DNA of 64,000 bases from Ramlibacter sp. (GTDB taxonomy: Bacteria > Pseudomonadota > Gammaproteobacteria > Burkholderiales > Burkholderiaceae_C). The first letter of the stretch is position 1. Each line of letters begins with the position of its first letter. Location of the stretch: contig JAUYOG010000043.1 in NCBI GenBank assembly GCA_030695945.1, positions 1 through 64,000 on the forward strand, given 5' to 3'. The position numbers were made by a program, and so were the translations under genes. Positions 34,283-47,080 of this stretch are shown piece after piece. A model generated the notes under the pieces. That model made no database searches. It saw nothing but the letters and a program-made list of their open reading frames with translations, and was not told where the DNA came from.

Positions 34283-37200
34283 ATGTCCATCCATGCCGCA
34301 CTGAACCACGTCACCCATTACCGGTATGACCGCCCGGTTCAGTTGGGGCCGCAGGTGGTACGGCTTCGTCCGGCGCCGCATTCGCGCAGCACCATCGTTT
34401 CGTACTCGCTGAAGGTCGAGCCCGCCAATCACTTCATCAACTGGCAGCAGGACCCTTTCGCCAACTACCAGGCGCGGCTCGTGTTTCCCGAGAAGGCCAC
34501 GGAATTCAAGGTCACGGTGGACCTCGTGGTCGAAATGGCGGTGTACAACCCGTTCGATTTCTTCCTGGAACCGAGCGCGGAGAACTTCCCCTTCAAGTAC
34601 GAGCCGCTGGTGGCGCAGGAGCTCGCGCCCTACCTCGCCCTCGAGCCCGCCACGCCGCTGCTGGAGGCCTACCTCGCGCAGGTCGACCGCCAGCCGCGGC
34701 GCACCATCGACTTCCTGGTGGGGATCAACCAGAAGCTGCAGCATGACATCAAATACCTGATCCGCATGGAGCCGGGCGTGCAGACGCCGGAGCAGACGTT
34801 GCAGAACGCCAGCGGCTCCTGCCGCGACACCGGCTGGCTGCTGGTGCAGCTGCTGCGCCGCTGCGGGCTGGCCGCGCGCTTCGTCTCCGGCTACCTGATC
34901 CAGCTCACGCCCGATGTGAAGGCGCTGGACGGCCCGAGCGGCACGACCGTCGACTTCACCGACCTGCATGCGTGGTGCGAGGTGTACCTGCCCGGCGCCG
35001 GCTGGATCGGGCTCGACCCGACGTCGGGCCTGCTCGCGGGCGAAGGCCACATCCCGCTGGCGTGCACGCCGCAGCCGTCGGGCGCCGCGCCGATCGAAGG
35101 GCTGGTGGACGACGCCGAAGTGGAATTCGCCCACCACATGCAGGTCACGCGCATCCATGAATCGCCGCGCGTGACCAAGCCCTACACCGAGGACCAGTGG
35201 ACGAAGGTGCTCGCGCTCGGCGACGCGGTGGATGCCGAACTGCAAGCCGGCGATGTGCGCCTGACCATGGGCGGCGAGCCGACCTTCGTCGCAGTGAGCG
35301 ACCGCGATGCACCGGAATGGAACACCGACGCGCTGGGCCCGACCAAGCGCGCCTATGCCACCGAGCTGGTGCACAAGCTGCGAGACGAGTACGGACGCGG
35401 CGGCTTCCTGCACTTCGGCCAGGGCAAGTGGTACCCCGGCGAGCAGCTGCCGCGTTGGGCGCTGTCGATCTGCTGGCGCGCCGACGGCCAGCCGGCGTGG
35501 GAGAACCCGGCGCTTTTCGCCGACGAACGCCAGCCGGCGCAATACACGAGCGAGGATGCCCGGCGCTTCGTGCATGCACTGGCCGGCCGGCTCGCAATCA
35601 CCGACCAGTTCATCAAGCCGGGCTACGAAGACGTCTATTACTACCTGTGGCGCGAGCGGCGGCTGCCCGTCAACGTCGATCCCTTCGATTCGCGGCTGGA
35701 CGACGAGATGGAACGCGTGCGCCTGCGCCGCGTGTTCGAGCAAAAGCTCGACACCGTGGTGGGCTACGTGCTGCCCTTGAACGCGCAGGAGCACGAGAAC
35801 CCGAACCTCACCGGCCCGCGCTGGACGACCGGCCCCTGGTTCCTGCGCGACGAGCGCATGTACCTGATCCCCGGCGATTCGCCGATGGGCTACCGCCTGC
35901 CGCTCGATGCCCTGCCCTGGGCCAGCAAGACCGACCTGCCGTACCTGGTCGAACAGGACCCGATGGCGCCGCGTGCCCCGCTGCCTGCGCCCGACGCGAA
36001 GCGCAGCGCCGTGCCCTACCTCTCGGGCACCGGCCCGCAGGCCGAGGCGCCCTGGCGGATGCAAGGCGCCGGCGGCGAGGGTGAAACGGGCACCCACGCC
36101 GGCACGGAGTCCATCGAATTCGCGCAGGCGCCCGCGTTGCACGAGTCGGCCAAGGACCTGAGCCGCACGGCACTGTGCGTGGAAGCACGCGACCCGCGCC
36201 GCGCCAACGGCCCCAAGGCGGAAACGGTGGGCACGAAGAGCGGCATGCTCTACGTCTTCATGCCGCCGCTGGCGAAGCTGGAGGACTACCTCGACCTGCT
36301 GACGGCCGTCGAAGCCACCGCTGAAGGACTGGGCGTGAAGGTCGTGCTGGAGGGCTACCCGCCGCCGCGCGACCAGCGCCTCAAGGTCCTGCAGGTCACG
36401 CCCGACCCCGGCGTCATCGAAGTCAACATCCACCCGGCGCACAGCTGGGGCGAGCTGGTGGCCCATACCGAGTTCCTCTACCACGCAGCGTGGGAGACGC
36501 GCCTGTCGGCCGAGAAGTTCATGACCGACGGCCGCCACACCGGCACCGGCGGCGGCAACCACTTCGTGATGGGCGGCGCCACACCGGCCGACTCGCCGTT
36601 CCTGCGCCGGCCCGAGCTGCTGGCCAGCCTGCTCTTGTACTGGCACAACCACCCTTCGCTGAGCTACCTCTTCTCGGGGATGTTCATCGGCCCGACCAGT
36701 CAGGCACCGCGCGTGGACGAGGCGCGCAACGACCAGCTGTACGAGCTGGAAATCGCGCTGCGCGAGATTGCGCGCGCCCGCCGCGTTCACGGCGAAGACA
36801 TGCCGCCATGGATGGTGGACCGAACGCTGCGCAACATCCTGGTCGACGTCACCGGCAACACGCACCGCAGCGAGTTCTGCATCGACAAGATGTACTCGCC
36901 CGACAGCAGCACCGGCCGGCTCGGCCTGCTGGAGTTGCGGGCTTTCGAGATGCCGCCGCACGCGCGCATGAGCGTCGTGCAGCAGCTATTGATCCGCGCA
37001 CTGGTGGCCCGCTTCTGGAAGGAGCCCTATCGCGCGCCCGTCACGCGTTGGGGCACCGAGCTGCACGACCGCTTCCTGCTGCCGACCTTCGTGCAAATGG
37101 ACCTGGGCGACGTGCTGGCCGAGATGCGCGCGGCGGGCTATCCATTCGAGGCCGACTGGTTCGCGCCGCACTTCGAGTTCCGCTTCCCGCTGGTGGGCCA

Positions 37201-37741
37201 GGTGCAATCCACCGGCATCGAGCTCACGCTGCGCAACGCGCTGGAACCGTGGCACGTGATGGGCGAGGAAGGCTCCGCCGGCGGCACCGTGCGCTATGTC
37301 GATTCGTCGCTGGAGCGCATCGAGGTGCGCGCCACCGGGTTGAACGAGAGCCGCTACGCGATCACGGTGAACGGCAGGGCCCTGCCGATGCAGTCCTCGG
37401 GCACGGCGGGCGAGTTCGTCGCCGGCGTGCGCTACAAGGCCTGGGCGCCGCCCTCGGCGCTGCACCCGACGATCCCCGTGCACGTGCCGCTGGTGTTCGA
37501 CATCGTGGACACGTGGATGAAGCGCTCGCTCGGCGGCTGCCAATACCACGTCGCGCATCCGGGCGGGCGCAACTACGACACGTTTCCGGTCAATTCGTAT
37601 GAGGCCGAGAGCCGCCGACTCGCGCGCTTCTTCCGCATGGGCCACACGCCGGGCACGCTGCAGGTGCCCCCCGCTACCATCAATGTGGCCGGCAGTAAAG
37701 AGTTTCCTTTCACACTGGACCTGCGCAAACCGCCGGGGTGA
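34283..37741 (+). CDS. Transglutaminase N-terminal / DUF2126 fusion protein
   Basis: The 1152-residue protein begins with a transglutaminase-like domain: [30 protein letters not shown], catalytic Cys in [17 protein letters not shown], His in [16 protein letters not shown] and Asp in GLDPTSG. From about 330 on it is DUF2126: [29 protein letters not shown], the [21 protein letters not shown] block near 760 and a C-terminal [25 protein letters not shown]. In genomes this protein accompanies alpha-E and ATP-grasp genes, here on the opposite strand beyond comEC. It is probably a peptidase or amide-forming member of the same system. ATG 34283 is chosen because [16 protein letters not shown] is the standard start. 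Confidence 0.92.
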   Translation: [1152 protein letters not shown]

Positions 37742-37762
37742 TATCCACCGCCGCTGTGGATA
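37742..37762 (+). terminator. Small hairpin after the DUF2126 gene (contains a DnaA-box-like 9-mer)
   Basis: TATCCAC and GTGGATA form a 7-bp stem starting directly after the stop codon. The right arm extends to TGTGGATAA, the complement of a perfect DnaA box, but it is isolated. A weak terminator or mRNA-end structure is the simpler reading. From here to 37902 I see no gene. Confidence 0.35.
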
Positions 37763-37902
37763 ACCCTGTTGGTTACTGGCGCGACGACTGCCGTAACGCA
37801 GCATTCACGCGGGTTGCGCTCTTGGTGCACGCGAAACGGGCATGAGGGGTCTCCCTGCTCACTTTGGTGCATTCAGGCGGACGGCTGACGCGCATAGTTG
37901 GT

Positions 37903-38149
37903 CGCGTGCAAATCCGCGCACGGGTGGGCTGTGTCGCGCGACAAGGCGGTCGGCTTCGCCGACTGAACCTGCGATGGCCGGTTTTGCGGTCGCATTGCGG
38001 AACTCACTGCGCGCCCTAAGGCCGCTTCGTTCGAACAGCCGCGATGAGAATGTTGACGAAGCGCTTCGCGCCGACCGCAAAACCGGCCCTCGCAGGCGCC
38101 TTGCCTGATTGCGCGACACAGCCCACCCGCACGCGGATTTGCAGGCGCA
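37903..38149. repeat. Inverted-repeat element copy 1, module A
   Basis: About 37 bases at the left end (37903-37938) are repeated inverted at the right end (about 38111-38149), with cores CGGGTGGGCTGTGTCGCGC and GCGCGACACAGCCCACCCG. Inner arms CCTGCGA-GGCCGGTTTTGCGG and its complement extend the foldback, so the whole module can form one long hairpin. Imperfect 12-base direct repeats (GCGCATAGTTGG at 37890 and GCGCACTGTTGG at 38145) flank it. No ORF of interest lies inside. Confidence 0.75.
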
Positions 38150-38190
38150 CTGTTGGCGCGCCACCGGTGGCGTGCCCATAGGTCACCTGA

Positions 38191-38423
38191 GCGTCAGGCG
38201 GTACCCGGCAGCGGCGATTTCTGTGGCGGCGCAGCGGCTCGGCCTGGGGACGGGCGCGCTTTAGCGCGCTACGTTTCATGCTCGCCGCACCTGTCTGAGC
38301 AGAGCGGCCTTAGGCGCTCTGCGAGTTGTGCGGCGCCGGCCCCAGGCCGAGGGTAGCGGAGCGGAGTCGTCGCGATAGCGTCGACCGTCACAGTATGAGC
38401 CGCTGCCGGGCACCGCCTGACGC
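38191..38423. repeat. Inverted-repeat element copy 1, module B
   Basis: The module is bounded by 25-base inverted repeats (38191-38215 and 38399-38423) that match at 24 of 25 positions; the left one begins GCGTCAGGCGGTACCCGG. A second nested pair, CTCGGCCTGGGG and CCCCAGGCCGAG, lies inside. It ends 18 bases before the stop codon of the HtrA gene. Between genes from 37742 to 38441 nothing else was found. Confidence 0.75.
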
Positions 38424-38441
38424 GACGCGATTCAGTCGAGC

Positions 38442-39920
38442 CTACCCGATCCGCACCGGCACGAAGATCTTGTCCTCTCCGCGCTGGATCAACAGCGCGA
38501 CGGACTTGTCGGACTTCGCGATCGCGGAGCGCGCCTGCTCGACGCTCTTCGCGGGCGTGCCGTTGATCGCCAGCACCACGTCGCCGGGTTCCACACCCGC
38601 GCGCGCGGCGGCCCCGCTCACGTCTTCCACCAGCAGGCCTTCCTTGATGCCGGACTGGCGCTTCTCACCTTCCTGCAGCGGGCGCAAGGCCAGGCCGAGC
38701 TTGCCGCCGGCGGCGGCGGCCTGTTCGCGTGGCTCGGCCTTCGCCACCTTCTCGGAGGCGCTGGCCAGCTGCGCGGTCAGGTCCACCTTGCGGCCCTGCC
38801 GCCACACCTCCAGCTGCAGGCGCGAGCCCGGCGTGGAGAGGCTGACCAGCGCCGGAAGGTCGCCGGACGCGACGATCGCCTGGCCGTTGGCCTTGCGGAT
38901 CACGTCGCCCGGCTGCAAGCCCGCCTTCTCGGCGGGGCTGCCCTTCTCCACGCTGGCCACCAGCGCGCCTTCGGGGCGATCGAGCTTGAACGAGTCGGCA
39001 AGCGCCTGGTTCACCTCCTGCACCGTCACGCCGAGCCGTGCGTGCTGCACCTTGCCGGTGGCGACGATCTGGTCCTTCACGCGGGTGGCGACATCGATCG
39101 GGATCGCGAACGACACGCCTTGGTAGCCGCCGGAGCGGCTGTAGATCTGCGAGTTCATGCCGATCACCTCGCCTCGCCCGTTGAACAGCGGGCCGCCGGA
39201 GTTACCCGGGTTCACCGCGACGTCGGTCTGGATGAAAGGCACCGCGCTTTCGTCCGGCAGCGAGCGGCCCTTGGCGCTCACCACGCCGGCAGTCACCGTG
39301 TTCTCGAAGCCGAACGGCGAGCCGATCGCCAGCACCCATTCGCCCGGGCGCAGCTCCTTGCTGTTGCCCAGCGTGACGACGGGCAGGTTGCGCGCCTCGA
39401 TCTTGAGCACGGCCACGTCGGTCTTGGGGTCGGTGCCCAGCACCTTCGCGCGGTACTCGCGCCGGTCGGTGAGCTTCACCGTCACTTCGCTCGCATCCTT
39501 CACCACGTGGGCGTTGGTGAGGATGATGCCGTCGGCACTGATGATGAAGCCCGAACCCATGCCGCGCACGGGCACGTCGCGCGGCACACCGCGGCCCTGC
39601 CCCTGCTGGAAGCGGCGGAAAAGCTCGAACGGGTCGCTGGCGTCCTCCGGGTCGATGCCCATCGCCTTGCGCGTGCCGGACACGCTGATGTTGACGACGG
39701 CGGGCCCGTAGCGCTCGGTGATCCGCGGGAAGTCCGGCAGCGTGGCGGCCGCCAGCGCGGGGGCCACCGGGGCGGGCGCCGCGACGGTGGCCGGCGCAGC
39801 CACCGCCGCTGGCGCCGCGTTGACGCGGCTGTGCAGGGCTTCGACGCCCGCCCCACCGATCACGCCGGCGCCCAATAACGCCAGCACGAGCGGTGCTGCC
39901 TTGATCCGAGACTGTGCCAT
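38442..39920 (-). CDS. degP: Do/DegP-type periplasmic serine protease (HtrA family)
   Basis: The 492-residue protein has an N-terminal membrane/signal segment (about 7-28), an Ala/Pro-rich linker (35-60), a trypsin-like domain with the triad His138 (LTNAHVV), Asp168 (KTDVAVL) and Ser241 (NPGNSGGPL), and two PDZ domains (about 290-380 and 405-490). It should degrade or refold damaged envelope proteins. A strong GGAGG ribosome site precedes ATG 39920. The signal segment could also serve as a membrane anchor. The 3' end abuts module B of the inverted-repeat element. Confidence 0.93.
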   Translation of the reverse strand: MAQSRIKAAPLVLALLGAGVIGGAGVEALHSRVNAAPAAVAAPATVAAPAPVAPALAAATLPDFPRITERYGPAVVNISVSGTRKAMGIDPEDASDPFELFRRFQQGQGRGVPRDVPVRGMGSGFIISADGIILTNAHVVKDASEVTVKLTDRREYRAKVLGTDPKTDVAVLKIEARNLPVVTLGNSKELRPGEWVLAIGSPFGFENTVTAGVVSAKGRSLPDESAVPFIQTDVAVNPGNSGGPLFNGRGEVIGMNSQIYSRSGGYQGVSFAIPIDVATRVKDQIVATGKVQHARLGVTVQEVNQALADSFKLDRPEGALVASVEKGSPAEKAGLQPGDVIRKANGQAIVASGDLPALVSLSTPGSRLQLEVWRQGRKVDLTAQLASASEKVAKAEPREQAAAAGGKLGLALRPLQEGEKRQSGIKEGLLVEDVSGAAARAGVEPGDVVLAINGTPAKSVEQARSAIAKSDKSVALLIQRGEDKIFVPVRIG

Positions 39921-40071
39921 GGATGTGTTCCTCCGAAACATTGCGGTTGCAGGTGCTGAGATGCGGCCGGGTGCCCCGAAGTTCAAGGCGCGGCCGACTC
40001 TGTCGGAAATGGCCTACGCGACGCCCGCCGCCGAGCCTGCATAGTCAGGGGATTTGCGCAAAACTCATCAC

Positions 40072-41901
40072 ATGACCGGCAAGCTCGCGAGCGCCCTGGG
40101 CGTGGCCGCCCTGCTGTGGCTCGCCCCCGGGCCCGCGTCCGCACAGGCACAGCCCGCGGAGGATGCGCCCGGCGGCATCGACGCCGCGGCACGACCGTCG
40201 TTCGACCTGGACATCCGCGCGCCGCAGCCGCTGCGCGGCGTGCTGGAGCGCCACCTGGATTTGCGCCGCTACCGTGAAGTGAGCGACCTCGACGACGCGG
40301 AACTCGCGCGACTGATCAGGATGGCGGACGGGGAAGTGCGGGAACTGGCCGCGACACTCGGCTACTTCAACCCCGAAGTGCGGATCACGCGGGAGCCCGG
40401 AACCCGGCCCACCCTCGTCGTCACGGTGGAACCGGGCCAGCCCACGGCAGTCAACGAGGTGGCGATCGAGTTCGAGGGCGACATCGCGCGCAGCGAAGAG
40501 CCGGATGCGATGCGCCAGCGCGAAGGCATCCGCGGCGACTGGCGCCTGCCGGTGGGCCAACCCTTCACGCAGTCGGCGTGGGACGACGCCAAGGCCGCTT
40601 CCGTGCAGCAGCTGCTGGCGCGCCGCTACCCTGCCGGCCGGATCAGTTACAGCCTTGCGGACATCGACGCGACAGCGCACCGCGCGCGGCTGGGCCTGCG
40701 GCTCGACTCCGGCCCGCTGTTCCGGCTCGGCCCGATGCAGGTAAGCGGCGTGGAGCGGTACAACCCGGTGCTCGTGCCCCGCATCGCGCGGCTGCCGGTC
40801 GGCTCGATCTACGACCGCGAGCGCATCCTGCAGGCGCAGCTGCGCCTGGCCGGCAGCGGCTACTTCGACTCCGCGTTCATCCTGGTCGACCCGCAAAGCG
40901 ACCCACAGGCCGCGCCCGTGCAGGTGACGGTGCGCGAAGCGCCGCTGCAGAAGGTGGTGCTGGGCGTCGGCCTGACCACCGACAGCGGGCCGCGCGTGTC
41001 GATCGAGCACATCCACAACCGCGTGCCCGGCATCGGCTGGCGCGCGGTCAGCAAGCTGCAGCTGGATCGCAAGACGCCATTCGCGCAGACCGAGCTCATG
41101 GCGATCCCCGACGAAAGCGGCTGGCGGTGGGCGGGACTCGCGCGCGCCGAGCGCCTCGACGACGGCAACCTGGTGACGCACGGCCAGCGGCTGCGCTTCG
41201 GGCGCCTGCGCAGCGAGGAGCGGATCGACCGCAACGTGTACGTCCAGTACGACCGCGCCACGGTGCAGACGACCGCGGGCGCGCCCGTGACGTCGTCGGA
41301 CAGCGGTGCGGGCTCGGCGCTGAGCGCGAACTACGTGTGGACCGGCCGCTACTTCGACAGCCTGACGTTCCCCACGCGCGGTCACGGCCTCGGCCTCGAG
41401 CTGGGCGGTGGCGTGACGCTGGGCGGCGAGCGCAGCGTGTTCCAGCGCACCGTGTTCCGCGGCCTGTTCCTGCGTCCGTTGACGCAGGGCCGCCTGCAGC
41501 TGCGCGCCGAAGCCGGCGCCGTTCTCGCGCGCTCCGGGGCGCAGGTGCCCGGCACGCAGCTGTTTCGCACCGGCGGCGACAACACGGTGCGCGGATACGG
41601 ATACCGGGAGCTCGGCGTCGCGCTGCCGGGCGGGCAGACCGGGCCGGGCCGCCTGCTCGCGGTGGGCAGCGTCGAGTGGCAACGGCCGATCCGCTGGGGC
41701 GGTCGGCCGACGGAGTTCGAGAGCGTGCTGTTCGTGGACACGGGCGGGGTGGCGGACCGGGTCGGCGACCTGCGCCTGTCGACCGGCATCGGCACGGGCG
41801 TTCGCTGGAAGAGCCCGGTCGGACCGGTGCAGGCGGACATCGCGTACGGCATCAAGAGCAAGAGCGTGCGGCTGCACATGAGCGTGGGGTTCGTGTTTTG
41901 A
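40072..41901 (+). CDS. tamA: Outer-membrane translocation and assembly module TamA
   Basis: The protein of about 609 residues is a BamA/Omp85-superfamily member. It has a signal peptide (to about residue 25, ASAQAQ), POTRA domains (about 60-270, for example VAIEFEGDIARS and GPLFRLGPMQVSGVERYNP), and a 16-strand barrel domain ending in aromatic residues (MSVGFVF), the classic outer-membrane C-terminus. The GRLLAVGSVEWQRPI segment is typical. It works with TamB, encoded 2 bases downstream, in autotransporter or lipid/protein transport to the outer membrane. The start could be ATG 40072 or TTG 40054; the former gives a better signal peptide. Confidence 0.9.
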   Translation: MTGKLASALGVAALLWLAPGPASAQAQPAEDAPGGIDAAARPSFDLDIRAPQPLRGVLERHLDLRRYREVSDLDDAELARLIRMADGEVRELAATLGYFNPEVRITREPGTRPTLVVTVEPGQPTAVNEVAIEFEGDIARSEEPDAMRQREGIRGDWRLPVGQPFTQSAWDDAKAASVQQLLARRYPAGRISYSLADIDATAHRARLGLRLDSGPLFRLGPMQVSGVERYNPVLVPRIARLPVGSIYDRERILQAQLRLAGSGYFDSAFILVDPQSDPQAAPVQVTVREAPLQKVVLGVGLTTDSGPRVSIEHIHNRVPGIGWRAVSKLQLDRKTPFAQTELMAIPDESGWRWAGLARAERLDDGNLVTHGQRLRFGRLRSEERIDRNVYVQYDRATVQTTAGAPVTSSDSGAGSALSANYVWTGRYFDSLTFPTRGHGLGLELGGGVTLGGERSVFQRTVFRGLFLRPLTQGRLQLRAEAGAVLARSGAQVPGTQLFRTGGDNTVRGYGYRELGVALPGGQTGPGRLLAVGSVEWQRPIRWGGRPTEFESVLFVDTGGVADRVGDLRLSTGIGTGVRWKSPVGPVQADIAYGIKSKSVRLHMSVGFVF

Positions 41902-41903
41902 GG

Positions 41904-44900
41904 ATGCGGCTCGTCAGGCGTGACTGGCAACTCATCCCGACGCTGCTGCTGGCGGTGATCGTGATCGTGCTGTCCGCCGCTGCCGGCCTGTGGTGGTGGG
42001 CCGGCACCGAGAGCTCGCTCGAGTGGGCGCTGCGCCGCGTCGCGCAATCGCAGCCGCTCACCGCCGAGGGCATGAGCGGGACGCTGCGCACCGGCCTGAA
42101 CGTGCGCCGCCTCGCGTGGGAGCACGAGGGGCTGAAGATCGAGGCCGACGACGTGGAACTCGCCTGGCGGCCGCTCTTCCTGCTCGGCGGCACCGTGAAG
42201 CTGGATCGCGTGCATGCATCGGCCTTGCGCATCACCGACCGCCGCCCGCCGGCCAAGGAGCCGTGGAAGCTGCCCGACGCGCTGGTGATCCGGCCCGAGC
42301 TGGAGCTGGACGACCTGCGGATCGGCCAGGTGGAATGGATCACCGCCAACACGGTTCGCGCGGACGACCTTTCCGGCCGCTATTGGTACGACGGCGCCTC
42401 CCACGTGCTGCGGCTGGACAACGTGCGCTGGGCAGGCGGCACCTATCGCGCCACGGCGAACCTGGGCGCTCGCGGGCCGCTGCTCCTGGACGCGACGGTC
42501 TCCGGCAAGGCCGACGCGCCGGTGCCCGGGGGCGGCAAGCTGCCGGTGGAGTTCACAGCCACGTTGCGCGGGCCGCTGGCCGACCTGCAGGCGGCCGCCG
42601 AGGTGAAAAGCACGGCGGCCGGGGCGCAAGCGACGCAGGCCACGGCCAGCGCGCGCGTGACGCTGTGGGCTGAGCAACCGATACCGCAGGCGCAGGCGAA
42701 ACTGGACGGGCTCGACCTCGCGGCACTGTGGCCCGAGGCCCCGCAGACCCAGCTGGCCGGCGAGGTGCGCCTGGCCCCGGCCGGCGCCGGCACCTGGCAG
42801 GTCGACGCGGACCTGCGCAACGGCGTCCCGGGCCCGTGGGACGAGCGCAAACTGCCGGTGTCGCAACTGAAGGCGCAGGGCCAGTGGCGCAAGGGCATGG
42901 CGCTGGTAAAGGACCTCGACGCGCAACTCGGGGGCGGCCGCATGAAGGCCAGCGGCCAATGGAAGCCCGGCGATGCCGGCTGGACCTTGCGCGGCGACCT
43001 GGTGGACGTCGACCCGGCGGCGCTGCACACGCGGTTGGCCGCAGCGCCGGTCGGCGGGCGGGTGGACGTGCGGCAGGACGGCGGCGCGATCGCATTCGAC
43101 CTGGGACTCAAGGGCAGCGGCCGCAAAGCCAAGGCGCCCGGAAAGCGCGGTGCGCGCGCGAAGCAGGCGCCCGCCCGGCTCGAGATCCTGCAGGTCAAGG
43201 CCAACGGTCGCTGGGCCGGCGGCCACCTGTCAGTGCCCATCTTCGCGCTGGTGGCCAGCGACGCGACCCTGCACGGATCGATCGAGGCGCAAATCCCCTC
43301 GCGTTCGGGCAGCGGGCGCCTGTCGTTGCAGGCGCCCGGCCTGCGCGCCACGGCCAACGGCGAACTGTCCGAGACGGCGGGCCGCGGCAACGCGCAGGTC
43401 GATGGCGCCGACCTCGCATCGGCCCAGCGCTGGCTGCAGCGCCTGCCGGGCCTGGACGCCGTGCGCAATGCGCCGCCCGTCGCCGGCCGTGCGGCCATGG
43501 CACTGGCCTGGCAGGGCGGCTGGAGCGACCCGACGGTGCAGGCGCGCGTGTCGTCGCCATCGCTGGCGCTGGGCTCGCGCGAGCCCACGCAGGCCGCGCC
43601 ATCGTGGGCGGCCACGGACGTGCTGCTCACGTTGAACGGCCGCCTCAGCGACGCGACGCTGGCCGCGCAGGCGCGCGCCCGCCAGGGCCAGCGCCAGGTG
43701 GACTTGCAGCTCGCGGGCCGCGGCGGGCGTGCACCGCTGCGCCGGGGCGCCCCCGCGCAATGGCGCGGCAACATCGCGAACCTCGACGTGGCGGTGCTGG
43801 ACCCCGCGATCAGCAGCGGCGCCTGGCGGCTTGCGCTCCAACGGCCCGTTGACTTGCGGTGGTCGCCCGCGGGCAGCGAGCTGGACCTGACCGCCGGGCA
43901 GGCAACGCTCTCCGCCCCGGCCGTGAAGGGCGCCGCGCCGCCGTCGCAGGCGCTGCTCGCGTGGGACCCGGTGCGCTGGCGCGCCGGCGAACTGCGCACC
44001 GCCGGCCGGCTCACGGGCCTGCCGCTGGGATGGATCGAACTCGTAGGCGGGCAGCAACTCGCGGGGTCGGCGCTGTCCGGCGACATGGTTTTCGACGCGC
44101 AGTGGAACGCCAGCCTCGGCCGCGAGCTGAAGCTCGACGCATCGCTCGCGCGCAGCCGCGGCGACATCACGGTGCTCGCGGAAACCGCGCCCGGGGTTTC
44201 CTCTCGCGTCGCCGCGGGCGTGCGCGACGCGCGCCTCACGCTCGCGAGCCAGGGCGAGCAGGCCACGGTGACACTACGCTGGGACAGCGAGCGTGCCGGG
44301 GTGGCGGAAGGCCGGCTGGCGACACGCCTGTCGCGCGGCGGCCCGGCCGGCTGGCAGTGGCCTGAACAGGCGCCGATCTCCGGAACATTGCGTGCGCAAT
44401 TGCCGCGCATCGGCGTGTGGTCGCTGCTCGCGCCGCCGGGCTGGCGGTTGCGCGGCTCGCTCGCGGCCGACGTGAAGGCCGCGGGCACGCGCGCCGATCC
44501 GCAGCTCTCCGGCACCATCGCCGCGGACGACCTCGCGCTGCGGTCGGTGGTGGATGGCATCGAGTTGCGCGACGGGCGGATGCGCGCCCGTCTCGAAGGC
44601 GACCGCCTGCAGCTGACCGAGTTCACCCTCCATGGCGGCGGCGCGCAGGGCAGCGGCGGAACGCTGTCCGCAACCGGTGAAGCGGCCTGGGCAGGCGGCA
44701 GCCCACGCCTGCAGGCACAAGCGCAGCTGACGCGGCTGCGCGCCAGCATCCGGTCCGACCGGCAGCTCACCGTGTCGGGCCGCCTCGAAGCGCGCGTGGA
44801 GCCGACGGCCACCCAGGTGCGAGGCAACCTCAAGGTGGACCAGGCCCGCATCACGCTGCCCGAAGAGACCGAGCCCAGGCTGGGCGACGACGTCGTGGTG

Positions 44901-45686
44901 CGCAACGCAACGTCCCTCGGCACGACCGCGCGCGAGCGCAACGCCCCGGCGCAGCAGACCGCGGGCGCGCCCGCCGCGCCCGCGAAGCGGCCGCTCGACG
45001 TGGCGGTGAACCTGGACCTCGGCGACGACTTCCAGGTGCAGGGGCGCGGCCTGCGGACGCGCCTGCGCGGGACGCTCGCCCTGTCGGGCCAGTCGCTCGC
45101 CGCGCCGCAGCTGGCCGGCACCATCACCACGGTGCGTGGCGAGTACCGCGCGTACAACCAGCGCCTGGACGTGGAGCGCGGCGTCCTGCGCTTCACGGGC
45201 CGCATCGACAACCCGTCGCTCGACATCCTCGCGGTGCGGCCGAACATCTCCCAGCGCGTCGGCGTGCTGATCACCGGCAATGCGCAGGCCCCCTTCGTGC
45301 GCCTGTATTCGGAGCCTGAATTGCCGGACGCCGAGAAGCTCGCCTGGCTGGTGACCGGGCGGCCGGTGCCCAGCACCGGCGCCGAAGCCGCGCTCGTCCA
45401 GCAGGCGGCGCTGGCGCTCCTGTCCAGCCGCAGGCCGGGCGCGACCAGTTTCGCGTCCCGCGTCGGCCTCGATGAACTGTCGGTACGGCGCAGCGGCAGC
45501 GAAGGCGCCGTCGTCTCGCTGGGCAAGCGCTTCGCGGACAACTTCTATGCGTCGTACGAGCGCAGCCTTTCAGGCGCCCTGGGCACGCTCTTCATCTTCT
45601 ACGACGTCTCGCGCCGCCTCACCGTCCGCGCCGAAGCCGGCGAACGCGCGGGGGTGGACCTGATCTTCACGTTTGCGTTCGATTGA
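41904..45686 (+). CDS. tamB: Translocation and assembly module TamB (AsmA/bridge-like)
   Basis: The 1260-residue protein has an N-terminal membrane anchor (about residues 12-34), a very long periplasmic beta-rich region and the C-terminal DUF490/TamB domain, with GTITTVRGEYRAYNQRLDVERGVLRFTGRIDNPSLDILAVR near 1075-1115 and a terminal FIFYDVSRRLTVRAEAG...DLIFTFAFD. It spans the periplasm as a groove and pairs with TamA; current work links it to phospholipid transport as well. The ATG at 41904 follows the tamA stop by 2 bases. Frames extending upstream within tamA are shadows. Confidence 0.9.
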   Translation: MRLVRRDWQLIPTLLLAVIVIVLSAAAGLWWWAGTESSLEWALRRVAQSQPLTAEGMSGTLRTGLNVRRLAWEHEGLKIEADDVELAWRPLFLLGGTVKLDRVHASALRITDRRPPAKEPWKLPDALVIRPELELDDLRIGQVEWITANTVRADDLSGRYWYDGASHVLRLDNVRWAGGTYRATANLGARGPLLLDATVSGKADAPVPGGGKLPVEFTATLRGPLADLQAAAEVKSTAAGAQATQATASARVTLWAEQPIPQAQAKLDGLDLAALWPEAPQTQLAGEVRLAPAGAGTWQVDADLRNGVPGPWDERKLPVSQLKAQGQWRKGMALVKDLDAQLGGGRMKASGQWKPGDAGWTLRGDLVDVDPAALHTRLAAAPVGGRVDVRQDGGAIAFDLGLKGSGRKAKAPGKRGARAKQAPARLEILQVKANGRWAGGHLSVPIFALVASDATLHGSIEAQIPSRSGSGRLSLQAPGLRATANGELSETAGRGNAQVDGADLASAQRWLQRLPGLDAVRNAPPVAGRAAMALAWQGGWSDPTVQARVSSPSLALGSREPTQAAPSWAATDVLLTLNGRLSDATLAAQARARQGQRQVDLQLAGRGGRAPLRRGAPAQWRGNIANLDVAVLDPAISSGAWRLALQRPVDLRWSPAGSELDLTAGQATLSAPAVKGAAPPSQALLAWDPVRWRAGELRTAGRLTGLPLGWIELVGGQQLAGSALSGDMVFDAQWNASLGRELKLDASLARSRGDITVLAETAPGVSSRVAAGVRDARLTLASQGEQATVTLRWDSERAGVAEGRLATRLSRGGPAGWQWPEQAPISGTLRAQLPRIGVWSLLAPPGWRLRGSLAADVKAAGTRADPQLSGTIAADDLALRSVVDGIELRDGRMRARLEGDRLQLTEFTLHGGGAQGSGGTLSATGEAAWAGGSPRLQAQAQLTRLRASIRSDRQLTVSGRLEARVEPTATQVRGNLKVDQARITLPEETEPRLGDDVVVRNATSLGTTARERNAPAQQTAGAPAAPAKRPLDVAVNLDLGDDFQVQGRGLRTRLRGTLALSGQSLAAPQLAGTITTVRGEYRAYNQRLDVERGVLRFTGRIDNPSLDILAVRPNISQRVGVLITGNAQAPFVRLYSEPELPDAEKLAWLVTGRPVPSTGAEAALVQQAALALLSSRRPGATSFASRVGLDELSVRRSGSEGAVVSLGKRFADNFYASYERSLSGALGTLFIFYDVSRRLTVRAEAGERAGVDLIFTFAFD

Positions 45687-45722
45687 TGGTGCCTTGCCCA
45701 CTGTTCATTCGACTTCCTCGCG

Positions 45723-45960
45723 GCAAAGCCGCATGCGGGTGGGCTGTGCCGCGCGACAAGGCGGTCGGCTGCGCCGACTGAACCTGCGCTGCCCGGTTTT
45801 GCGGCCGCGTCGCACAACTCGCTTCGCGCCCTAAGGCCGCTGCGCTCGGACAGGTGCGACGAGCCAGTTCACGAAGCGCGCAAGCGCGCCGTCCGCAAAA
45901 CCGGTCATCGCAGGCGCCTCGTCTGATTGCGCGGAACAGCCCACCCGCACGCGGCTTTGC
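45723..45960. repeat. Inverted-repeat element copy 2, module A
   Basis: It is homologous to 37903-38149, with terminal arms GGCAAAGCCGC-TGCGGGTGGGCTGT and the complement at about 45933-45960. Relative to copy 1 both arms carry paired changes (AAATCCGCG/CGCGGATTT in copy 1, AAAGCCGC/GCGGCTTT in copy 2), so base pairing is kept. It lies between the convergent tamB and trypsin-like protease genes. Confidence 0.75.
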
Positions 45961-46008
45961 TGGGACGCTGTTGGCGCGCACCTGTTCAAATGCCCACCCG
46001 CTCGTTGA

Positions 46009-46242
46009 GCGTCAGGCGGTGCCCGGTGGCGGCGATTTCTGTGGCGGCGCAGCGGCTCGGCCTGGGGACGGGCGCGCGCAGCGCGCTTCGTTTCATGCTC
46101 GCCGCAAGTGTTTGAACGGAGCGCCCTTCGGGGCGCGAAGTGAGTTTTGCGGCGCCGGCCCCAGGCCGAGGGTAGCGGAGCGGAGTCGGCGCAGAAGCGA
46201 CGACCGTCACAGTATGAGCCGCTGCCGGGTACCGCCTGACGC
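46009..46242. repeat. Inverted-repeat element copy 2, module B
   Basis: The 25-base ends (46009-46033 and 46218-46242) match those of copy 1, and two internal blocks of about 40-47 bases are identical between copies. The intervening hairpin arms differ. Beyond the modules, nothing else was found in 45687-46285. Confidence 0.75.
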
Positions 46243-46285
46243 GACGCGAACACGAAACAAGCATGACGCGACGCGCAACCCCCGA

Positions 46286-47080
46286 TCAATCCTTCGTGAG
46301 TGTGAGCAGGATGTCCGCGTACCACGCGCAATTGAGGCCGAGCGCCTCGTCGAGCTTGAGGTCGCGCGTGCCCACGTCCATGCGCGACGAATGGATGCCC
46401 AGCAGCGTCCACGGCAAGTCGCCCTGCGCCAACGCGCCAGTGCGCGAGCGCATCACCACCGGCGCGCCGCTGGTGCCGCGATGCGTGCGCGCATCCGTGA
46501 GGAAGTAGCCCTTGCCCTGGAAGCGCAGGCCGAACGGCGACGCGTTGACCGCGTGCCGCACCACGGGCAAGTGGTGCAATGCGTCGTGGAAGCCGAGCGG
46601 AAAACCCACCACCAACAGGGTGGAGCCGACTTCCACGGCGTGCGGCGGCTGGTGCAGGTGATCGGGCGTGAAGGCGCGGTAGACGGCCGTCTTCGGCAGC
46701 GCGCCGCGCTCGATCTCCAGCACGGCCACGTCGACGTCGCCGCCGGTGTCGCGGCCCTGCCGCCACACGCTCTTGCCGTCGCGGTACAGCGGCATGGAAA
46801 AACCGGTGGATTGCGCCATGTTGCGGCCGTCCGTGTGCAGCTCGATCTCCACGCGGTCCGGGTAATGCTTGCTCGGCTCGTCGATCATCACGTGCCGGCT
46901 CGTCACCAGGAACAGGCGCTCGCCACGCTGGAAGAAAAAGCCGCTGGCGTTCGTGAGGATGCGCTGCCGGTCGAAAGTCACCACGCGCGCGGCGGCCAGC
47001 AGCAGCGCGTCGATGGGTGGGGCGTCGGCGGGAGCGGCGGGGGCAGGAGTCGCCGGCGGGGGCGCGTTGTCGTCTTGCAT
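46286..47080 (-). CDS. Trypsin-like serine protease, apparently cytosolic
   Basis: The 264-residue protein has a chymotrypsin-fold triad: His in FLVTSRHVMID, Asp in GGDVDVAVLEIE and Ser in HRGTSGAPVVM. The N-terminus is Pro/Ala-rich (MQDDNAPPPATPAPAAPADAP) with no signal peptide or membrane helix, so it should stay in the cytosol; no PDZ domain is present. A processing or regulatory role for a neighbouring system is possible but not shown. It is divergent from the ATP-grasp/alpha-E fusion gene (49 bases apart), and its 3' end faces the repeat element. Confidence 0.87.
   Translation of the reverse strand: MQDDNAPPPATPAPAAPADAPPIDALLLAAARVVTFDRQRILTNASGFFFQRGERLFLVTSRHVMIDEPSKHYPDRVEIELHTDGRNMAQSTGFSMPLYRDGKSVWRQGRDTGGDVDVAVLEIERGALPKTAVYRAFTPDHLHQPPHAVEVGSTLLVVGFPLGFHDALHHLPVVRHAVNASPFGLRFQGKGYFLTDARTHRGTSGAPVVMRSRTGALAQGDLPWTLLGIHSSRMDVGTRDLKLDEALGLNCAWYADILLTLTKD

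Follow-up and report, generated by a model that had tools for sequence, protein, structure and literature searches.

The 64,000-nt stretch of Ramlibacter sp. DNA analyzed here (GenBank assembly GCA_030695945.1, contig JAUYOG010000043.1, positions 1 to 64,000, forward strand; hereafter the window) carries two copies of an intergenic element of about 520 bp (some other genera have longer versions), which consists of two mirror-image folded modules of ∼240 nt around a small hairpin spacer. The element is dispersed within and between genomes, differs in presence between species at orthologous sites, and recurs as a pair; evolution has preserved the shape of its modules more than their sequence, and the fold of the module core is selected for pairing. 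On balance, and without great confidence, we favor the explanation that it is a non-autonomous mobile element, recognized as a folded single strand by a factor acting in trans.

Architecture and fold of the element

A preliminary description, made from the sequence and its open reading frames (ORFs), had proposed two homologous intergenic copies, and both are real: their arms were recovered, and the copies share 84% identity across the whole element (E 3e-161). They lie where that description placed them, with the element extending slightly farther outward on each side. The copies and their parts are as follows:

37902-38430, no strand: element copy 1, with ends TCGCG...CGCGA, set by eye in an alignment of eight genomic copies
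37903-38147, minus (the presumed structured strand): copy 1 module A, from arm search, folding and A/B alignment
37985-38079, minus: conserved covarying core of copy 1 module A, core set entry L001:1586-1680:-
38148-38190, no strand: copy 1 spacer, a small third hairpin, from arm search and folding
38191-38423, plus: copy 1 module B, from arm search, folding and A/B alignment
38246-38343, plus: conserved covarying core of copy 1 module B, covariance model, 94.2 bits, E 8e-19
45718-46249, no strand: element copy 2, from arms and the eight-copy alignment
45718-45965, minus: copy 2 module A, from arm search and folding
45800-45897, minus: core of copy 2 module A, covariance model, 103.1 bits, E 6e-21
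45966-46008, no strand: copy 2 spacer, its hairpin apparently degraded (by eye)
46009-46242, plus: copy 2 module B, from arm search and folding
46064-46162, plus: core of copy 2 module B, covariance model, 101.7 bits, E 1e-20

The inverted arms claimed for both modules, outer as well as inner or nested, are present in both copies. In copy 1, the outer arms of module A (37903-37947/38103-38147, 45 nt) are 87% complementary and its inner arms (37968-37992/38072-38096) 96%, while the corresponding values for module B are 85% for the outer arms (38191-38229/38385-38423, 39 nt) and 94% for the nested arms (38238-38253/38336-38351). In copy 2, the outer arms of module A (45718-45763/45920-45965, up to 46 nt) are 83% complementary, its inner arms (45783-45807/45890-45914) 88%, the outer arms of module B (46009-46047/46204-46242) 79%, and its nested arms (46056-46090/46136-46170) 74%. 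The paired arm change reported between the copies, AAATCCGCG/CGCGGATTT against AAAGCCGC/GCGGCTTT, can be read directly in the sequence, and the longest identical stretches measure 49, 41, and 29 nt, close to the 40-47 bases first given. Similarly, the earlier observation that no ORF fits the element agrees with a codon-usage ORF finder, which calls no gene inside either window copy; the listed ORFs that overlap it look like out-of-frame or antisense readings of neighboring genes, or short chance frames.

Folded as a single strand, each window copy forms two long branched stem-loops, and the spacer of copy 1 folds as a hairpin. The reverse complement of module A is homologous to module B in the distal core and diverged from it in the basal arms, such that the plan of the unit is a reverse module, a spacer hairpin, and a forward module. 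Terminal inverted repeats are present as TCGCGGCA-type ends in the Ramlibacter copies. The A/B homology, the spacer hairpin of copy 1, and the outer ends are additions to the preliminary description. Separately, GACGCGACGCGA or a close variant recurs just past the right end, at 46240-46276 in the window and at L003, L010, and L018.

Conservation of the fold was analyzed in 32 diverse Ramlibacter cores (84 modules were reduced to 35 by a redundancy filter, and three were left out). The structure, written from these same 32 sequences, comprises P1, a P2 hairpin, a joining region, P3, an internal loop, and P4. In this alignment, 86.9% of cells pair and 19 of 30 pairs have two-sided changes; the covariation score is 0.352, compared with 0.119 (sd 0.009) after shuffling (0 of 500) and at most 0.103 when the structure is slid. 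Unconstrained RNAalifold predicts 15 pairs for the same alignment, 10 of them with two-sided changes. The 99-nt core covariance model, R1, collected a further 92 cores at 50 non-Ramlibacter loci, including one contig from a viral collection; in these cores, 96.6% of cells pair and 29 of 30 pairs have two-sided changes. The score for the 90 distinct cores of this set is 0.655 against 0.163 (sd 0.007) shuffled and at most 0.097 slid, although the alignment was fitted to R1, which favors the score. Thus, variation among copies keeps the pairing at a level above shuffled expectation, as had been anticipated from the two window copies.

An explanation free of selection, in which a local duplication was followed by palindrome correction, through template switching or conversion of the arms, that produced the paired changes, is very improbable. 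Helix 3 does show two-sided changes with few intermediates, as correction would give. However, correction would erase internal mismatches, whereas the mismatched loops are nearly invariant: conservation across genera is ∼90% or more for letters such as TCGT in the joining region and for those in the internal-loop motifs TGT..GA, CG.AG, and CG.AG.GAGTT. Because palindrome correction would not keep such mismatches, the fixed mismatched loops together with the strong covariation indicate that the fold is under selection; furthermore, copies are found at dispersed places in many genomes and genera.

The core also has a preferred strand. In 48 non-redundant modules, 65 pairs are predicted for both strands alike, and at these the outward strand has 114 G.U and 50 A.C. 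Of the 65, 38 favor G.U, 10 favor A.C, and 17 tie (p 6e-5, a value that treats pairs as independent, which is not quite true). Pairs predicted on one strand only lean toward their own prediction strand, and in the R1-fitted alignment from outside Ramlibacter the counts are 47 G.U and 3 A.C. The G.U excess speaks for a single strand, whether RNA or single-stranded DNA, rather than for a symmetric DNA cruciform alone.

Dispersal and site differences between species

The preliminary description had noted that a local duplication would be the better account if only two copies existed, but many are present in the genome and more in other genera. The Ramlibacter genome itself, an assembly of 73 contigs that is 79% complete, holds the element in at least 18 places at 248 bits or more (DNA search, with 40 of 96 candidates scored), as well as weaker copies of a second type. 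Contig ends are reached by six of the 18 (in one case to within a single base), which suggests that the element may break assemblies; some of these places may be halves of one copy. A DNA search of 61 genomes, with 10 candidates scored per genome, found matches in at least 19 including this one, all among the 37 of the same genus (0 of 24 others). With R1, at least 106 of 250 Comamonadaceae genomes and at least 64 of 141 genera match, a lower bound given that 16 candidates were scored per genome under strict filters. In a sample of 369 genomes of the class (11 candidates scored each), at least three matched: this genome, a second one from its family, and, marginally, one from outside the family (E 6e-6).

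The pair is the recurrent unit. In nine other genomes, 166 of 206 cores fall into 83 close pairs, every one of them in the minus/plus arrangement; direct neighbors on the minus strand occur once among 42 adjacent core pairs, and 40 of the 206 listed cores are without a close partner. We considered modules as independent units and rejected this idea, since the partial copies of the own genome (L009-L013, L016) look like full pairs that have lost one module. A second outer-arm type, which adds a CTTTCTTT...AAAGAAAG hairpin and one of the form GCCGGG...CCCGGC, was recognized by eye in 12 of 35 printed pairs from other genera (L191, L212, L213, L251, L252, L256, L257, L260, L263, L221, L227, and L233); the part shared among outer-arm types is the core.

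Orthologous sites differ in occupancy at three places. In the nearest relative searched (G003; 88% DNA identity at tamB and 93% protein identity for degP), the stops of tamB and the trypsin gene lie 24 bp apart, compared with 599 in the own genome, so that the site of copy 2 is empty. The site of copy 1 is likewise empty: 162 bp separate the stops behind the DUF2126 gene, against 700 in the own genome, and this gap contains an apparent native hairpin and T6. The third site, L204, is in another genus, where the flanks are 28 bp apart in G107 and 597 bp apart in its sister species G223 (90% and 88% identity of the flanks). The L204 search gave no element match in G107, which is also absent from the 106 R1 positives, and G223 has eight close core pairs. 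The element is, in all likelihood, mobile.

Searches with blastn returned nothing from plasmids, nor from phages (for which the query was the G223 copy only), and an exact-pattern scan of IMG/VR returned three contigs, which gives little sign of carriage by phages. As a separate observation, contigs of a metagenome-assembled genome named Stagnimonas (JAUYNO01; L129, L133, L142) carry at their ends copies like those of the own Ramlibacter genome, with 95% identity over 460 bp for L129 and 98% over 213 bp for L133; these represent either transfer or mis-binning.

Gene context, enclosed DNA and candidate mobilizing genes

The element sits behind the 3′ ends of genes, often between convergent genes. 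Both window copies are flanked by genes whose 3′ ends face the element:

34283-37741, plus: transglutaminase / DUF2126, left of copy 1
38442-39986, minus: trypsin-PDZ, DegP-like, right of copy 1
41904-45686, plus: TamB, left of copy 2
46286-47080, minus: Trypsin_2, right of copy 2

Context was counted with the codon-usage ORF finder, for which six genes of the window served as the training set. For the 51 loci with both neighbors in view (of 74 examined), neighbors are convergent in 32, tandem in 19, and divergent in none, and a gene 3′ end lies within 60 nt in 33 and within 100 nt in 45. At 40 loci from other genera (of 50; five with far-spaced cores, four too short, and one incomplete were left out), 15 are convergent and 22 tandem. 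The background is 7 convergent, 31 tandem, and 7 divergent among 45 neighbor pairs of the window (both element sites included) and 4, 24, and 3 among 31 other pairs from the other genera, giving Fisher p values, for convergent against the rest, of 3e-6 for the 51-locus set and 0.03 for the other-genus set. An inward-reading run of at least five T lies beside 6 of 35 other-genus pairs and an outward-reading run beside 0 of 35; the inward runs are no more than suggestive of insertion at terminators.

A hairpin repeat, TCAT...ATCCA, occurs within 150 bp at 14 of 75 listed loci, mostly reading toward the element (L004, L006, L010, L013, L016, L109, L112, L124, and L125 are flanked by it), and is probably a separate 3′-end repeat. 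These hairpins were rejected as the true ends of the element, being absent within 150 bp at 61 of the 75 loci (by one regular expression, with a few loci overlapping).

This context bears on a possible alternative, to which we give less than even weight, in which the selected object is RNA. Read-through from either convergent gene would then end in one functionally oriented module, and the pair would serve as a two-way 3′-end element (a barrier, terminator, stabilizer, or regulatory RNA) with mobility secondary. The outward orientation of both cores, the nearby gene 3′ ends and convergent excess, the preference for G.U over A.C, and the branched core with its well-conserved joining region are all consistent with it. 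However, no intrinsic terminator-like site (GC stem with a T run) or sigma-70-like site was found in 37700-38500, which covers copy 1 only. In addition, Rfam gave no match in the window at gathering score, and four in 37700-38600 at E up to 10, with E values of 4.9-8.3, all far below gathering. A cis-acting role as RNA would, by itself, also leave the changes of site between species unexplained. The original suggestion of a non-autonomous mobile element or a structured RNA family was right as a disjunction.

Seven of the pairs examined enclose stretches far longer than the usual spacer:

L109 (G020): MAPEG; a HicB-like partner (DUF7387, below cut-off); HicA; one ORF with no Pfam hit
L112 (G035): RiboL-PSP HEPN protein
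L202 and L199 (G177): small ORFs with no Pfam hit
L201 (G300): no clear gene, perhaps a 91-aa ORF
L203 (G142): ∼400 bp between cores
L249 (G142), 5.4 kb: addiction-module antidote, Phage_integrase-type recombinase and AraC regulator (Pfam), with two further ORFs resembling SDR dehydrogenases (by eye)

The cargo of L109 is bordered by GTTAGGC/GCCTAAC-like sequences, which we take to be reminiscent of attC. No autonomous parent transposon was seen in these seven pairs or in the own-genome loci examined.

One candidate mobilizer was a Y1 transposase, searched for in 37 relatives and the 250 family genomes. This bears on a relationship to REPINs (repetitive extragenic palindromic [REP] doublets forming hairpins) or bacterial interspersed mosaic elements (BIMEs), that is, REP doublets moved by the REP-associated tyrosine transposase (RAYT), a Y1 transposase. 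The plan is the same, with two inverted folded units and a spacer, an extragenic position, and no ORF (PMC3116915). Y1_Tnp occurs, however, in 167 of the 250 family genomes with no regard to the element (71 of 106 with it, 96 of 144 without; odds 1.01, p 1.0), 35 of the 106 element-bearing genomes have no Y1_Tnp match, and none of 60 Y1 loci examined has a core within the locus. Alignment of the element with 30 Y1 loci by blastn gave weak, short matches only. The single Y1_Tnp gene of the own genome (L094 1082-1918, G000:C52) is bracketed by a different and perfect 22-nt inverted repeat, TAATTGGGGTCAGATTCCAATT, which is perhaps the target repeat of that gene; a similar stretch occurs in the spacer of L123. 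A REPIN/BIME identity is accordingly already contradicted, and we assign it almost no weight. Another candidate, the small tyrosine recombinase from the G142 pair, is found in 52 of the 250 genomes, 30 of them shared with the element (p 0.018, a weak association), and several of its listed copies have internal stops; it was rejected as mobilizer and is treated as cargo.

Several observations weigh against the mobile reading. Neither candidate search yielded a mobilizing gene, and for the recombinase the core accompanies 1 of 30 loci, the source locus itself. No target duplication was seen in four correctly bounded copies, or in two more inspected by eye, and divergence of the intergenic flanks prevents an exact junction from being read at the empty sites. 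In G020, a different Ramlibacter species, a diverged subfamily of the paired element occupies both window sites (L145, L175), which may reflect insertion hot spots or ancient insertions; an old insertion with loss in G003 and homogenization is possible for these sites. Additionally, three of the 40 other-genus loci are divergent, and the G.U excess would suit RNA as well as single-stranded DNA.

If the element is nonetheless a mobile unit acting through its fold, a protein in trans would recognize the folded core in single-stranded DNA and copy or move the whole unit; genes caught between two modules may travel with it as passengers, and at its sites the element would be tolerated or mildly useful as a 3′-end structure. 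There are precedents for such recognition: IntI recognizes attC hairpins, and Y1 transposases recognize REP hairpins, as folded single-stranded DNA. A more specific form, which we regard as rather doubtful, is a family-wide cassette system unlike integrons or RAYT-REPIN, in which a host or mobile recombinase would use mirrored pairs of a large site folded as a single strand. It would copy the empty unit and, occasionally, units that carry one gene or more (toxin-antitoxin, HEPN, recombinase, and metabolic genes), and would place most of them downstream of transcription units.

Comparison with known systems

The literature searched, with subscription papers and supplements outside reach, contained no account of a paired-module element from Comamonadaceae, and the preliminary description's remark that the element had not been named holds to that extent; the betaproteobacterial repeat BRE is a possible partial overlap. 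That the core is the ∼90-bp BRE of Bordetella and several Comamonadaceae is unlikely in our estimation. The length, high G+C content, host families, and mostly intergenic position are similar, and BRE is present in 29 copies in Polaromonas sp. JS666 and 13 in Delftia acidovorans (PMC3110155). Where BRE occurs in several copies at one locus, however, these form tandem arrays spaced by few nucleotides or none, and no paired-module unit is described (PMC3110155), whereas all 83 close pairs here are inverted. Two core motifs are absent from the main text of that paper, which gives coordinates in B. pertussis Tohama I (3605317-3605401) and not the BRE sequence itself (PMC3110155).

The element is a common genome component across one large bacterial family, with strong covariation, for which the literature searched holds no description. 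Should it be mobile, it implies a mobilizing enzyme other than RAYT; should it act as RNA, an RNA family has been missed so far. The pairs that enclose genes would amount to an unrecognized route of gene movement. We class it with the non-autonomous structured intergenic mobile repeats, and with neither REPINs nor miniature inverted-repeat transposable elements (MITEs), because defining features tested for these two were not seen.

MITEs and mobile insertion cassettes are non-autonomous and have inverted ends, some with passenger genes. The element shares these traits, including putative passengers in some copies, and the earlier term MITE-like stands as far as the terminal inverted repeats go. 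A strict definition does not apply so far, as no target duplication has been seen and no parent transposon found, and the internal fold is selected. The neisserial NEMIS/Correia repeats, ERIC, BOX, and bcr1 have plans smaller than that of the element. They belong to other hosts and have other sequences. Such repeats often show mobile-element traits, and their roles include mRNA stability, termination, or promoter activity (PMC3110155).

Similar to REPINs and BIMEs, the element is an inverted structured doublet with a spacer, multicopy, extragenic, and non-coding (PMC3116915). Its modules of ∼240 nt, with a 99-nt branched core, differ from REPs of 20-40 bp (PMC3733652). It is also without RAYT dependence, and its pairs can enclose genes. 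The attC sites of integrons are folded single strands with conserved unpaired bases. Unlike them, the modules of the element are larger and mirror-paired, with no integrase linked; like them, its core appears to be a folded single strand with conserved unpaired bases, and the borders of the L109 cargo are attC-like.

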